From positions 1 to 33,232 of the IMG/VR virus record IMGVR_UViG_3300037245_000320: 33,232 bases of DNA. One strand, 5' to 3'. The translations under genes were made by a program, and so were the position numbers. The notes under the pieces were generated by a model that saw only the letters and a list, made by a program, of their open reading frames with translations, was not told where the DNA came from and ran no database searches. The stretch comes from a virus. This document shows positions 20,090 to 33,232 of this stretch, piece after piece (the stretch's first letter is position 1; each line of letters starts with the position of its first letter).

Positions 20090-20758
20090 TTATAGTATTG
20101 ATTGAAGTCTTATGACCTCAATATTTAAACATTGTTTTCCTTGTGGCTCAACTATTCCACTATCATTGTAAACCCGAACAATAAAGTCAGAGGTTTCTTC
20201 CAAATCCGAACCCTTAATAATAAGTGGAGGATTCGTTAAATTCTCAAATGGATAAGAAGGATTAAAAGTATTAGATCCATCAATTATAAAGTTAGCAGGG
20301 GTTTTCTCTTGCCCTTTTATTTCCATTCTGTAACCTTGGAAATCTCCAAGCGTTTGCCCTGTTTCCATCAGTCCAGATTCAGCACTCGCTAATCTATTCA
20401 TCCCGACAAAAAGAGTCTTCCGATTATTGGTAAAAATAATAACTCCGAATCTTCCTGCAGCCATTATATCAATTTGCTCTCGCATATTTTCACTAATATA
20501 TTTAATGACAAGGTTAAGCTGCTGAGTCCAAAACTTAGATCCCGTAGTTTCTAAGGAAGAGACTGTTTCTTGATAAGTAGATGTCTCACTTGAGGAGTAT
20601 TTAAACATCCTCACAGCAAGTCCATCAGAAGTTATATTTGTAACAATATTGTTTACTTCTGTAACCACAAAAGGAGTATTGATAAAGTAGGCAGCAGCAA
20701 TGCCACCCACTTTATTTTTACATCCATCATCAGAACCCTTATCAAAAATACAAGTCAT
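20090..20758 (-). CDS. Paralogue of the tail-tube candidate with extra C-terminal domain
   Basis: A 222-aa protein that begins MTCIFDKGSDDGCKNKVGGI and contains FWTQQLNLVIKYISE, then GQTLGDFQGYRMEIKGQEKT and PANFI. These match the 186-aa protein at 24059-24619 (MTCLLGKG..., FWEQVLSLTIKKQD, AMGDLSGYTMVLTGREPKPANFL), so the two are paralogues. The C-terminal 40 residues (DFIVRVYNDSGIVEPQGKQC, then LNIE) instead resemble the 151-aa protein at 23504-23959. It is a virion component, perhaps a second tail tube or ring, or a tail decoration. The role is uncertain. Confidence 0.65.
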   Translation of the reverse strand: MTCIFDKGSDDGCKNKVGGIAAAYFINTPFVVTEVNNIVTNITSDGLAVRMFKYSSSETSTYQETVSSLETTGSKFWTQQLNLVIKYISENMREQIDIMAAGRFGVIIFTNNRKTLFVGMNRLASAESGLMETGQTLGDFQGYRMEIKGQEKTPANFIIDGSNTFNPSYPFENLTNPPLIIKGSDLEETSDFIVRVYNDSGIVEPQGKQCLNIEVIRLQSIL

Positions 20759-24058: not shown

Positions 24059-24619
24059 TTATGCAGGAGGGTCAGCACCTTTAGTTACAGTCACCGCCGA
24101 AGTCATCCCATCAAAAGGATAATCAGCAGCAGCAGTGCTTACTCCAGGAGTTAAGAAATTAGCTGGCTTTGGTTCTCTTCCTGTCAATACCATAGTATAT
24201 CCAGAGAGATCACCCATTGCTGTACCTGTTACAATAGTGCCACCTGTCGCATCAACGCCGAACAGACGCCCGACCATAAACAGATTGCTATTGTTATCTA
24301 ATACAAAAACAAAGGGATTTCCATAAGCCATTATTTTCAGCTCTTTATTTGTAATAGCATCTTGCTTCTTAATAGTCAAGCTTAACACTTGCTCCCAAAA
24401 AGTTGTGCCATTTTCTCGGCTAGAATTTACATTCTGAACCAAGTTAGATACGTCTTTTGTAACGTATTCGTAAACTGTTACCACCCCTAAATCGGTGATA
24501 ATATCAGCAGCACTTTCAACGATTACTTCAGATCCAGGGTTTAAAAAGAATACCTTTTGAATCCCCCCGATTGAATCTTTGCAAAGTTCGAGTCTGCCTT
24601 TACCTAGTAAACAAGTCAT
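24059..24619 (-). CDS. Putative major tail tube-like structural protein
   Basis: A 186-aa protein beginning MTCLLGKGRLELCKDSIGGI, with FWEQVLSLTIKKQD, KELKIMAYGNPFVFVLDNNS and AMGDLSGYTMVLTGREPKPA downstream. The pattern (Cys-containing N-terminus, 'QxLxxxLKKQD', then 'GDLSGYT...PANF') is that of an abundant Bacteroidota-phage structural protein I associate with the tail tube. It lies just after the capsid gene and just before a strong terminator, consistent with very high expression. The tube role is inferred from abundance cues and position. The paralogue at 20090-20758 is its relative. Confidence 0.6.
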   Translation of the reverse strand: MTCLLGKGRLELCKDSIGGIQKVFFLNPGSEVIVESAADIITDLGVVTVYEYVTKDVSNLVQNVNSSRENGTTFWEQVLSLTIKKQDAITNKELKIMAYGNPFVFVLDNNSNLFMVGRLFGVDATGGTIVTGTAMGDLSGYTMVLTGREPKPANFLTPGVSTAAADYPFDGMTSAVTVTKGADPPA

Positions 24620-28871: not shown

Positions 28872-30611
28872 TTAACCTCCTGCCTGTTCTGCTATTCTCC
28901 TATCTAGTGCCTGTTGAGTAGACATCTCAGCAGAAACTACAAACGCCTTAGCCGAGCCTGTATTTATATTCTGCCCTATGTCGGCTGGACTAGCTGGTGA
29001 TATCCCTGCAAGTGATGGAGTTGAGATTAGAGGTGCTGATATTGAAGCAGACCCTCCAATACCTCCTGCTCCTCCTGCAAATTTCTGTGATACACTTTTA
29101 GAAGAGCTCACTGCTGATGATACACTAGCAATTATTCCTGCTGCTGTCGCTGCATAAGCTATCAGTAAAGGAATAGCAATAGGGAATCCTGCCTTCGCTG
29201 TTGCTGCTGTTCCTGCTGCTATATCTGCCACTGCATTTACTCCTGTTAAGTTTGCCTCCACAATATTTTTAATGGCCTTACTTTTTATTATACCTAAATC
29301 AATAAGGAGTTCTTTAGTAGCTAAGAATTGCTTAAATAAAAGAGCTGCTCTTCCTATCTTACTTTCTTCTCCTGCTAATCGTGCCAAAGTATCTGCTGCA
29401 GTTAGCTTAGATTGTAATAGCTGTGCATTTAGAGCAAGCTCCCCTTCTACTAGCTTGGTCTTTTCTTCTGCCCTCTCCTTTTCTAATTTAAGAGCTTCAT
29501 CATCCTGTGATTTTTTAAGGTCTATTGCTGCCTTTACTTCTGCATCATCTTCAGCTTTCAGCTCTCTCTTTAAAGTTCTGGCTTCAGTAGCTATTCGCTT
29601 TTCTTGGTTTGCTGCCTCCTTCTTTAATAAGATAAGAGCTGCCTCTAGCTGTGCCTCTTCCTCGAAATCTTCCTTAGTAGTACCAGACAACTTATTACGT
29701 TCTCTGATTTGCTCTAATCGTAATTCTCCTAGTCTAGTTTCTTCATCAAACAGCTCTTTTATTTTTGCCTGTGCATCATCTAAAGCCTGTAATCTTTCTG
29801 CTGTCGAGAAGTTCTCTTCATCAATAGCCTTTAGTCTTAGGTCGGCAATCTCACCCTCTAGCCTTGCCCTATTTACTAATTGAGCTCTAGTGTCTTTGTC
29901 TATCTGAGCCTGAACATCTGAGAGCCTATTAGAAACAGCAATCTCACGTTCTTGCTCTGCTATAAATCCTGTTACTGCATTAGTAGCTTTATCAACTGAA
30001 TCCTTTACTCCTGTGAATACATCTACAAAAGTTTTCCCTGCCTGTGCTGCTGCTGCTCCTGCTTCCTTGAATTGACCCTTAAATACTAATCCAATAGTTT
30101 TGCCAAGCAGCCCAAAAGTTTTAATTAATGCCTGTATTCTGTTAGTGATATTCTGCCTAATGGCTTTAGCAAAATTATTAATAGCCTCTCTTGGATTCTC
30201 GAATGCTGAGATAACCATATTACCAAAGTCAGCAAGTATGTCAATAAGGTTGCCGGTAATAACACCGATAGCATTCATTATCTTAGCAAACTTATTCTGT
30301 CCTTCTTCAGTAGATGAGAAAGCTGCCTTGATTGAGCCTATAAGAATAAGCAAAAGCCCTAGTCCTGTTGCAGCAATAGCAACCTTCATAACACCCAAAG
30401 ATTTTACTGAGGACATTATGCCATTCTTGAATCCTTGTAGTTTACCAACAGCACCACCTAGAGCCGCATCAGCTGCTCCACCCATCTCAGAAAAACCCTC
30501 ACTGACCTCTTCAGTTTCTTCCTGAGTAGTTTCTAAGCTCTCATTAAGCTCATCAACTTGCTCCTGCCCTTTTACGACTGCATCAATTTGTATCTTAAAC
30601 TTTTTTGCCAT
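28872..30611 (-). CDS. Tape measure protein
   Basis: A 579-aa protein from ATG 30611 (a GTG at 30614 adds one codon). The N-terminal helical region (AKKFKIQIDAVVKGQEQVDE) leads to a hydrophobic segment (about residues 75-100, with AATGLGLLLILIGSI). A long coiled coil (about 220-430, Glu/Lys/Arg/Gln-rich) follows, then a second hydrophobic stretch (AIPLLIAYAATAAGIIASV) and a Gly/Ser/Ala-rich C-terminus. Tape measures span the tail tube. 579 residues would correspond to a tail of roughly 85-90 nm by the usual 0.15 nm per residue rule. Overlaps the preceding 54-aa gene. Confidence 0.92.
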   Translation of the reverse strand: MAKKFKIQIDAVVKGQEQVDELNESLETTQEETEEVSEGFSEMGGAADAALGGAVGKLQGFKNGIMSSVKSLGVMKVAIAATGLGLLLILIGSIKAAFSSTEEGQNKFAKIMNAIGVITGNLIDILADFGNMVISAFENPREAINNFAKAIRQNITNRIQALIKTFGLLGKTIGLVFKGQFKEAGAAAAQAGKTFVDVFTGVKDSVDKATNAVTGFIAEQEREIAVSNRLSDVQAQIDKDTRAQLVNRARLEGEIADLRLKAIDEENFSTAERLQALDDAQAKIKELFDEETRLGELRLEQIRERNKLSGTTKEDFEEEAQLEAALILLKKEAANQEKRIATEARTLKRELKAEDDAEVKAAIDLKKSQDDEALKLEKERAEEKTKLVEGELALNAQLLQSKLTAADTLARLAGEESKIGRAALLFKQFLATKELLIDLGIIKSKAIKNIVEANLTGVNAVADIAAGTAATAKAGFPIAIPLLIAYAATAAGIIASVSSAVSSSKSVSQKFAGGAGGIGGSASISAPLISTPSLAGISPASPADIGQNINTGSAKAFVVSAEMSTQQALDRRIAEQAGG

Positions 30612-30759
30612 CACTTATATATTTAAACATTCTCACTATCTGAGCCCTACACTTGGCCCATGTATCAACATACTGATATCTGCCTTTTGCTATTTCCACC
30701 TGCTGGGATACATTGTAGAACTTATCCTTTTGTAGTAACCTTATTATATCTGCGATCAT
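30595..30759 (-). CDS. Small basic protein preceding the tape measure (54 aa)
   Basis: ATG 30759 overlaps the stop of the chaperone extension frame as ATGA. The product MIADIIRLLQKDKFYNVSQQ and a Tyr/Lys-rich remainder (VDTWAKCRAQIVRMFKYISD) is mostly helical and basic. Its last codons overlap the tape measure start. The tight fit on both sides supports translation. A role in tail assembly is inferred from position only. Confidence 0.65.
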   Translation of the reverse strand: MIADIIRLLQKDKFYNVSQQVEIAKGRYQYVDTWAKCRAQIVRMFKYISDGKKV

Positions 30760-30992
30760 TTCTTTGCCTGTTGTACTCTTACAAGATCAGCTTTAAATGC
30801 CAGCCATGTTAAGACTTTGTTCATACTTAGTTCAGTGACTTCATCAATCATAGTTATATTCCCATCTGTAAGAGAATAGATCGAACTGAACCATCCCCAC
30901 TTTTTAGCGTGTCCCACTTCCATGCCTGTGGAACTCCCTCCTCCTTCAAAGAGCTCAGGATAGCGTTTGTTAATTGCTGCCCTAAAGTCAAA
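30756..30992 (-). CDS. -1 frame extension of the tail assembly chaperone
   Basis: This frame is open from the T9 run at 30998-30990 to a TGA at 30758-30756, in the -1 frame relative to the chaperone. It reads FDFRAAINKRYPELFEGGGS and then KKWGWFSSIYSLTDGNITMI, followed by an acidic/helical tail MIDEVTELSMNKVLTWLAFK. The W-G-W/F..IY.L pattern looks like a real folded domain. A -1 shift at T TTT TTT would fuse it to residue 160 to give a 238-aa product, as in phage G/GT tail chaperones. Alternatively the last 31 codons from ATG 30851 are a separate gene. Confidence 0.6.
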   Translation of the reverse strand, partial: FDFRAAINKRYPELFEGGGSSTGMEVGHAKKWGWFSSIYSLTDGNITMIDEVTELSMNKVLTWLAFKADLVRVQQAKK

Positions 30993-31471
30993 AAAAAACT
31001 GACTGCTCCTAGAGCAATCCCCAGGGGCATTCCCGATAGATCCCCCACATCTTTATATTTCTCAATCTTATATCTGCCTCCTGTTTGAATTTGAGTAATA
31101 GGTCTGTAAAGAATACTCATCAGCTTATGATAGTTTTTAATATCAGTAAACTCATCCAAATCTATAAGCTCTCCAAATGAAATATCGTCAAGGTTGGGGA
31201 TGAACCCATATTTAACATCATCTAAAACGAACTCACGTTGAAGCTGGAATTTCTTATCTTCAATGTCTTTCTCAGAAGGTACTACTTTCTTTATCGCATC
31301 TATCAGATAATCAATATCTATATTTTTAATATCTTTAATGCTTTTTAGTCCGTAGGTAATATCTAATAACTCTTTAGTCTTTATAGATCCTCCAGCCTCG
31401 GCAATACGCTGCCATTGACCTAGAGTCATCTCATTTATATTCTCAGGAATCGTTACTATTTTATTGGTCAT
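30854..31471 (-). CDS. Tail assembly chaperone, short (zero-frame) form
   Basis: A 205-aa protein in the position and with the pattern of Bacteroidota-phage tail assembly chaperones. It starts TIPENINEMTLGQWQRIAEA, has REFVLDDVKYGFIPNLDDIS and FGELIDLDEF in the middle, then a YHKLMSILYRPI segment and MPLGIALGAVSFF. At codons 158-161 (AGT TTT TTT TTG) lies a 9-T run that fits the slippery heptamer T TTT TTT in frame. The zero-frame product carries 45 further residues after the run and ends SILLQMGI. Chaperones of this kind bind the tape measure. The 5' end overlaps the tail protein by 11 nt. Confidence 0.75.
   Translation of the reverse strand: MTNKIVTIPENINEMTLGQWQRIAEAGGSIKTKELLDITYGLKSIKDIKNIDIDYLIDAIKKVVPSEKDIEDKKFQLQREFVLDDVKYGFIPNLDDISFGELIDLDEFTDIKNYHKLMSILYRPITQIQTGGRYKIEKYKDVGDLSGMPLGIALGAVSFFLTLGQQLTNAILSSLKEEGVPQAWKWDTLKSGDGSVRSILLQMGI
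30989..31000 (-). promoter_or_regulatory. Candidate -1 ribosomal frameshift site (T9 run)
   Basis: The minus strand reads AGTTTTTTTTTG in zero frame AGT TTT TTT TTG, so the slippery heptamer T TTT TTT lies at codons 158-160. Slippage by -1 reads TTT GAC next and enters the open extension frame. A stimulator is not obvious. An AAGGAGGAGGG stretch lies about 50 nt downstream of the run. Confidence 0.55.
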
Positions 31472-33232
31472 ATCTCATTAAGTTAAGGGTTATGTTTTTT
31501 CTGTTAGTATCGTATTTGTAATCTAGTATACGGTGATAGAATCCATTGAAAAATATAATAGGGATAAATTGTATAGTTTTAAACACCCCTAAATTAACAG
31601 GGAACTTAATCTCTATCGTATATGCTGTAACCTTATATGTCTCGTCAAACCAATCTTTATAGAAGAATTTATAAATAGAGTTCTCTGCTACTGCTCCAAT
31701 AAAAGGGGCTTCATCATTAAAGGCAAAAGTGTTGGATGTTGTCAATGAAGTAAAGTCCTGGATTTGAGAATAAGCTCCCATAGTTGATTGAGAGGTAAAT
31801 GTAGGATCACCAGAACCATCAACGCCTGTTTGTAAGTACCAATCAAAGGAGGTAGGCTCTGAGCCATTACGATACATAATCATAAACTTTGCTAGGGTGG
31901 GCTTAGGCTCTGCCTCATTAGATAATTGATATTGATGTCTTAAATCTGTTAATCCATTCTCCACATCTGAGCCGTCATAAGTCTTTAGGTATTCAGGAGG
32001 GAAAACAGTAAATATACTTTTAATGGTTTTCGGATTACCAGCAAAATCAACGCTTGGCCTTTCAATATACCATCCATATTCTGAGCCTGTGTTATCATCA
32101 AAGATAGTATTCCCTGCATCCTTGAAATTATCGTGCTGAAAGTTTATAGCCTTATTCAAAAATATCTTCCTATATGTCAATGATGAATTATCAACATAGG
32201 GATTTAGGTCTAATATTTGAGCTGCTGAATAGAATGTCTTAACAGACTTAATACTATAAATGTTATCTGATGTCTTAACAAGAATTAGCTTATAGGTGCT
32301 TAGAAAATTATTTAAGAAGTCAAAAGCCTTTATCTCTGGAATCTGCAATGATGAGTCAAAATCATTACCTATCAGATCAGCAGGAATCTGAGTTGTTACC
32401 ATCCTAATAGAACAATCATCAGAAGCACTAGTTCCTATTATCTCAAAATGATAGGTGTCTGCTGTGCTTAATGTACCCTCTAAAAAGAATGTTGATGAAT
32501 CTCCTAGTCTAGTTTGAAAATCTACATCCACAGCTCCTGCATCTTTAACTAAATAAACAGTCCTAGATTCTGCTGTCTGTCCTGCTGATATAACAGTAAC
32601 CTCAAATTTATAAGTACCATTAAATTCAGGAGTATATGTTGGAGAAGTCCAGCGACCTCTAGGGTCTGAATTTTCCGTTGTCATTGTTATTGTCTGCCTT
32701 GAAGAAGTTACTCCAAATGCTCCTGTTGTTTCTACATCAGTCTTAAATTCTGACAGAGAAGAAGCACTTGCCACCTTAGAGGGTATAATAAAAGCCTCAT
32801 CAAAATAAGTAACAAGCTCTGAAGAGAAGTTAAATGTCAATCCAAAGTGAGTGCCTATTGCTTCTATAAAGTCTACAAAGTTAAATCCTACCCTCAGCTC
32901 ATTCAGTAGAACGCCTGTTGCTGATACTGCAATATCATCAGCGTGTCCTGTCGGTGAAGCATACCAGCGATAAAACCTCTCCCACGAAATAACAGGAATA
33001 AAAGTAGTACCACCAGCCCACGAATTAACAACAGAATCATCTGCCCAAGTAAAGTCAAACTCTGTAAAGTCTACATCCTCCAACAGAGTTTCTCCCATCG
33101 TTGTTTTTACTGTTGAAGTATCAGAATAAAATACTATTGAATAGCTGTTAGGCTTTCCGAGTTTCCACGTTACATTCATCACCTCGACAGCTCCAACAAT
33201 CTCAATGATCCCATCAATATCCAGCCTTGCAG
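31461..33232 (-). CDS. Putative tail protein, 3' part of the gene that crosses the contig ends
   Basis: Main part of a 668-aa protein whose start is ATG 362 at the other end. The 127 bases at 33106-33232 duplicate 1-127, so the true segment here is 31461-33105. The frame is open to the window end and gives a beta-rich protein with no membrane or catalytic motifs: a segment NVTWKLGKPNSYSIVFYSD near the repeat, then FYRWYASPTGHADDI, and a C-terminal domain with RILDYKYDTNRKNITLNLMR. Its stop overlaps the chaperone start. A distal tail or baseplate role is inferred. If the circle is not joined, this gene will be misread as 573 aa. Confidence 0.85.
   Translation of the reverse strand, partial: ARLDIDGIIEIVGAVEVMNVTWKLGKPNSYSIVFYSDTSTVKTTMGETLLEDVDFTEFDFTWADDSVVNSWAGGTTFIPVISWERFYRWYASPTGHADDIAVSATGVLLNELRVGFNFVDFIEAIGTHFGLTFNFSSELVTYFDEAFIIPSKVASASSLSEFKTDVETTGAFGVTSSRQTITMTTENSDPRGRWTSPTYTPEFNGTYKFEVTVISAGQTAESRTVYLVKDAGAVDVDFQTRLGDSSTFFLEGTLSTADTYHFEIIGTSASDDCSIRMVTTQIPADLIGNDFDSSLQIPEIKAFDFLNNFLSTYKLILVKTSDNIYSIKSVKTFYSAAQILDLNPYVDNSSLTYRKIFLNKAINFQHDNFKDAGNTIFDDNTGSEYGWYIERPSVDFAGNPKTIKSIFTVFPPEYLKTYDGSDVENGLTDLRHQYQLSNEAEPKPTLAKFMIMYRNGSEPTSFDWYLQTGVDGSGDPTFTSQSTMGAYSQIQDFTSLTTSNTFAFNDEAPFIGAVAENSIYKFFYKDWFDETYKVTAYTIEIKFPVNLGVFKTIQFIPIIFFNGFYHRILDYKYDTNRKNITLNLMRYDQ
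33106..33232. repeat. Right copy of the 127-bp end overlap
   Basis: Exact duplicate of bases 1-127. It lies inside the tail protein gene that crosses the contig ends. It should be counted once when genome length or gene content is reported. Confidence 0.95.

Follow-up and report, generated by a model that had tools for sequence, protein, structure and literature searches.

Recoded tail assembly chaperones, such as those of phages lambda (G/GT) and P2 (E/E'), are regarded as a paradigm of ribosomal frameshifting. P2 itself has a T6G slippery site in its tail chaperone gene, the P2-like phages have T7G or T7C, and the overlap between E and E' measures only 37 nt (PMC3931495). Phage tail chaperones are normally recoded by ribosomal frameshifting (PMC5009743), for which a level of 6-7% was measured in one TAC cluster (PMC3711429). 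Transcriptional slippage occurs on Tn runs with n>8 (PMC3711429); the insertions, mostly of a single nucleotide, climb exponentially with run length (PMC5574713), and the RNA-DNA hybrid spans 9-10 bp (PMC5009743). A/T runs of nine are avoided in many bacterial genomes; slippage seems to be suppressed in some AT-rich bacteria (PMC1088944), a point against its action here. The literature searched, with most subscription papers outside its reach, contained neither a tail chaperone made by transcriptional slippage nor a recoded tail chaperone from Bacteroidota phages.

The locus described here probably encodes a G/GT-type chaperone with both alternative C-termini, whose fused form, judging from sequence comparisons, would arise mainly via RNA polymerase slippage on a run of nine or more T's.

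The window locus and its putative chaperone

The window, i.e., the whole stretch of DNA analysed, is an IMG/VR virus record of 33,232 bases, and the locus is read on its minus strand. Its features are as follows:

31461..33182, minus strand: upstream gene, which probably encodes a protein of the tail or baseplate with 573 aa (phrog_38559, 0.0014 only)
30854..31471, minus strand: 0-frame coding sequence of 205 aa, tail assembly chaperone-like (N domain and 0-frame C-terminal tail), with ATG at 31471 and stop at 30856-30854
30990..30998, minus strand: T9 run (U9 in the mRNA) with in-frame T_TTT_TTT, the recoding site, conserved in homologous junctions
30756..30998, minus strand: -1 frame extension, a Trp-rich domain predicted to be helical, 80 codons from the run, with TGA at 30758-30756
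30854..30989, minus strand: dual-coding overlap in which both frames are read, as judged by third-position rates and a synonymous recoding test
30921..30923, minus strand: -1 frame ATG behind AAGGAGGAGGGAG, a possible internal start, not conserved
30595..30759, minus strand: next gene, 54 aa, between chaperone and tape measure (weak phrog_32183 match)
28872..30614, minus strand: tape measure-like protein of 580 aa (phrog_32985 at 1.4e-37, and weak matches to tape measure families)

Codons 158-161 of the 205-codon ORF read AGT TTT TTT TTG. The run is exactly nine T's long (A9 on the plus strand) and exceeds every other A/T homopolymer of the 33 kb window in length. The coordinates assigned to it in the preliminary description, with T_TTT_TTT in frame, hold, as does the claim that the -1 frame is open to 30756 and ends in an ATGA overlap, the ATG of the 54-aa gene (30759-30757) overlapping the -1 frame TGA (30758-30756). 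From the run onward the -1 frame has no stop before this one, which gives a fusion of 160 + 78 = 238 aa. Past the slip the 0 frame is open for another 45 codons (about 135 nt), and the two predicted products, of 205 and 238 aa, are those that had been proposed.

The order of the structural genes is unusual: between 33182 and 21789 (minus strand), the chaperone and tape measure precede an XkdF-type protease, a capsid candidate and the portal. Two phrog_19091 paralogues (24059-24619 and 20090-20758, minus strand) flank the portal region and may represent a duplicated tail or decoration protein. The terminase (4644-3331) is found towards the opposite end of the record, as might be expected if the genome were circularly permuted.

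The window protein matches phrog_32199 (E 4e-9), a family without assigned function, which was also found in the N domain of 55 of 55 relatives. Pfam PF10109 (Phage_TAC_7, which includes P2 gpE and Mu gp41) matches nine of the 55 weakly (best E 1e-3), phrog_166 (tail protein) matches six and phrog_3140 (tail assembly chaperone) one. The window protein itself has no match in Pfam, nor in the PDB by sequence. The 0-frame protein and the extension were modelled separately. The AlphaFold2 model of the 205-aa protein (pLDDT 86.5) has no PDB match by fold; in this model a helix of residues 150-177 spans the run, so the 0-frame tail is predicted to complete the C-terminal helix. The extension is predicted to be helical, with lower confidence than the 0-frame model, and its fold matches to SOX30 and HRSV M2-1 (Z about 3) were rejected as common helical arrangements. 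BFVD contains matches of 226-260 aa to both models, which may be single-frame fusions.

In the window and in a second locus, L045, the chaperone lies just upstream of the tape measure gene with one small gene between them, and the next long gene belongs to tape measure families (phrog_20660 at 1.1e-7 in L045). In the marine clade, the gene has the large terminase on one side and tail-completion-like genes on the other and is not before the tape measure, so position alone is no proof of function there. In this clade and in phage P12024L (loci L118, 2022-4750, and L043), the chaperone directly follows the large terminase, an arrangement that the window clade does not share; the gene has changed its place in the structural module. 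Tape measure position and the weak matches to TAC families together make a chaperone function very likely. If the system works as lambda gpG/gpGT does, the tape measure protein would be coated by the short form, the more abundant of the two, and the long form, made in smaller amounts, would bring in tail tube subunits via its helical, Trp-rich domain (the WGW domain).

Homologous junctions and the two overlapping frames

Using the -1 extension as the query, we recovered 251 loci, followed by 64 more distinct marine loci and five Bacteroidota bins; the latter came from a second profile scan of genome contigs, the first having found none. The loci include the isolated phage P12024L, whose host, Nonlabens (Persicivirga) sp. 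IMCC12024, is a marine flavobacterium, and its sister phage P12024S also matches. The pooled tally comprises 226 distinct junctions from IMG/VR, the isolated phage and the Bacteroidota bins.

The preliminary description had turned to homologues on two points: whether the run is retained and whether the WGW domain is a separate gene. In all 226 junctions the T run reaches nine or more and the -1 relation is the same, and in none are the two domains fused in one frame. The 0-frame domain is open up to the run in every junction (shorter where the contig ends); past the run the 0-frame tail continues for 27-75 codons, the -1 extension is mostly 80-94 codons long, and in the sets for which the +1 frame is listed it runs into a stop after no more than 13 codons. 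The layout is thus, by sequence, a widespread, unannotated family in phages with Bacteroidota as known hosts, and is not peculiar to the window phage. The group is large and mostly uncultured, and its identified hosts are Bacteroidota.

As for a separate gene, the WGW domain could be translated from its own ATG (30923), the 0-frame tail then being the chaperone's sole C-terminus. Such an arrangement would agree with the ATG behind AAGGAGGAGGGAG in the window and with the annotation of P12024L/S, in each of which the locus is entered as two CDS. Among the 68 diverse members, however, only four contain any ATG up to codon 40 of the -1 frame, and no conserved start for the extension was found; the ATG at 30923 was accordingly rejected as an internal start. 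Moreover, the -1 frame is conserved from the run onward (FF..F....YPELF...KKWGW), with LSFRER invariant in 20 members. Comparison of these sequences has largely refuted the arrangement as two genes, which we consider very improbable. The purine-rich AAGGAGGAGGGAG (30930-30950, minus strand) encodes a conserved F-E-G-G-G motif and is probably not a ribosome binding site.

Whether the 0-frame tail is itself a coding sequence was assessed from substitutions and by recoding. In 48 independent homologue pairs, the -1 frame third-position substitution rate is 0.124 in the overlap versus 0.273 after the 0-frame stop (Wilcoxon P 1.3e-7 for the paired difference); the 0-frame third-position rate upstream is 0.25. 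The rise occurs at about 120-150 nt in loci with tails of 47-54 codons and at about 180 nt in those with at least 63 codons, in each group at its own 0-frame stop. Two changes creating a 0-frame stop were observed versus 19.4 expected. When the -1 frame was randomly recoded with synonymous codons in 163 loci, the 0-frame tail stayed open for a mean of 11 codons versus 53 observed; for the window alone the values were 18 versus 45 codons (P 0.03).

The tail might instead be a mere by-product of the -1 code, without function. Part of the conserved 0-frame motif is indeed a shadow of YPELFEGG, and in a marine subgroup with a 41-codon tail third-position change is not suppressed at codons 28-40. 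Nevertheless, a by-product would account neither for rates that go up at the 0-frame stop wherever a given group has it, nor for the scarcity of stop-creating changes, nor for 53 open codons where 11 are expected, and we consider it improbable. In that marine subgroup third-position rates are also low further downstream (0.13), so they vary for other reasons as well; in this very conserved subgroup (L255-L334) change remains low (about 0.13) at extension codons 43-79, even past the 0-frame stop. On the sequence evidence the 0-frame tail is truly dual-coding and under selection, and most groups show the increase in rates at the 0-frame stop. The earlier proposal of a chaperone-like gene upstream of a tape measure gene, recoded by -1 at the T run and with two functional C-termini, is supported.

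These data also bear on the quality of the sequence. Homopolymers are error-prone, and were the true run T10 the gene would be read in one frame. An error of this kind is extremely improbable: the -1 relation recurs in 226 distinct junctions from many assemblies and in an isolated phage genome, and a one-frame gene would not maintain an open second frame over 27-75 codons with third-position change reduced by half. Recoding at the T run is, in our judgement, nearly certain.

The T run and the route of recoding

The run is nine T's long in 197 of the 226 junctions, ten in 23, eleven in five and twelve in one. Each of the three codon phases is represented, the tree of 163 fused proteins shows no fewer than 11 changes of phase, and the length of the run is conserved whatever the phase. 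Counted before and after the first in-frame T_TTT_TTT, the additional T's are distributed as (1,1) in 115 junctions, (2,0) in 66, (1,2) in 21, (0,2) in 16, (2,2) in five, (2,1) in two and (1,4) in one; they always add up to two or more. At other places in these loci, an in-frame T_TTT_TTT is a T7 in 10 of 12 cases. From base frequencies, we estimated the chance of two extra T's at about 0.16 per independent draw; by our own arithmetic, with lineages treated as independent, the probability that all of the approximately 12 phase states would comply by chance is near 1e-9. TTC never interrupts the run, though about 28% of the Phe codons in these genes are TTC.

RNA structure was sought in 68 members, in the 45 nt upstream and in the region 6-105 nt downstream of the run, and no excess folding relative to shuffled sequences was found (mean z -0.1 to 0.2). 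Accordingly, neither a pseudoknot nor a hairpin or terminator-like stem is proposed near the run.

The run comprises at least nine T's in every phase, seven suffice for the heptamer, and nine is the published threshold for slippage; RNA polymerase slippage is therefore favoured and is probably the leading mechanism. The preliminary description had read the run as a slippery site: its -1 recoding stands, but the ribosomal shift that it assumed would not call for the extra T's that transcriptional slippage requires. Ribosomal slippage is possible at every site because any T9 holds an in-frame T_TTT_TTT. Ordinary programmed -1 frameshifting on this heptamer, as in lambda G/GT and P2 E/E' and without a contribution from RNA polymerase, would accord with the presence of the heptamer in every homologue and with the standard route in phage tail chaperones (PMC5009743, PMC3711429), the extra T's being incidental or aiding tRNA re-pairing. 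Since seven T's would be enough, however, the two extra ones should vary, yet all 226 runs reach nine. The extra T's stand now before, now after the heptamer, which makes chance compliance very unlikely, the run is never cut by TTC, and no stimulatory structure was found near the run in the 68 members compared with shuffles. We regard an exclusively ribosomal route as the chief rival, possible but less likely.

The sequence data thus tilt towards transcriptional slippage as the main route. On this model, RNA polymerase would slip on the T9, which fills the 9-10 bp RNA-DNA hybrid, and a minority of transcripts would gain one U. Ordinary translation of these +U transcripts would yield the 238-aa fusion, with a possible contribution from -1 slippage of ribosomes at this run. 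Extended to a large clade of Bacteroidota phages, the proposition is that slippage of RNA polymerase on T9, and not ribosomal frameshifting, sets the ratio of the two chaperones, and that a single dual-coding stretch of about 27-75 codons specifies both C-termini; for this wider statement we consider the chances even.

If the RNA polymerase route is true, the two-protein output of tail chaperones would be reachable without a ribosomal frameshift. The conserved element across this widespread group is the length of the T run and not just the in-frame heptamer. The locus also represents a long stretch of phage DNA selected in two frames, and current annotation splits or truncates such genes. It would further offer a simple signature by which to find tail chaperones in uncultured Bacteroidota phages.

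Comparison with known systems

Among known systems, the Nonlabens phages P12024L and P12024S have homologous proteins, gp40-gp41 and gp38-gp39; the T9 junction and -1 extension were confirmed in P12024L. They differ in their short 0-frame tail of 27 codons and in the position of the gene after the large terminase. In each phage the gene is annotated as two hypothetical proteins, and the recoding was missed.

Like the bacterial genes recoded by transcriptional slippage on 9A or 9T (Thermus dnaX, Shigella mxiE and spa13, and IS elements), the present family has an uninterrupted A/T run of at least nine and a new-frame extension that is conserved among homologues. Unlike these genes, it appears to encode a phage tail chaperone, of which no example of this kind was found in the literature searched.

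The system of P2 (E/E+E', Phage_TAC_7) and P2-like phages shares the T-rich slippery site and the tail chaperone, and nine of 55 relatives resemble the Phage_TAC_7 profile weakly. What sets the present family apart is a T run that never falls below nine, whatever the codon phase, and a long overlap under selection in both frames.

As in lambda gpG/gpGT, the window locus presents overlapping ORFs before the tape measure gene, with a -1 extension that lacks its own start and is joined at a slippery site. The lambda site is a ribosomal heptamer, as opposed to the run of at least nine T's found here, and the window protein has no detected sequence similarity to any solved or Pfam chaperone. In addition, 27-75 codons are here coded in both frames, with both C-termini constrained.
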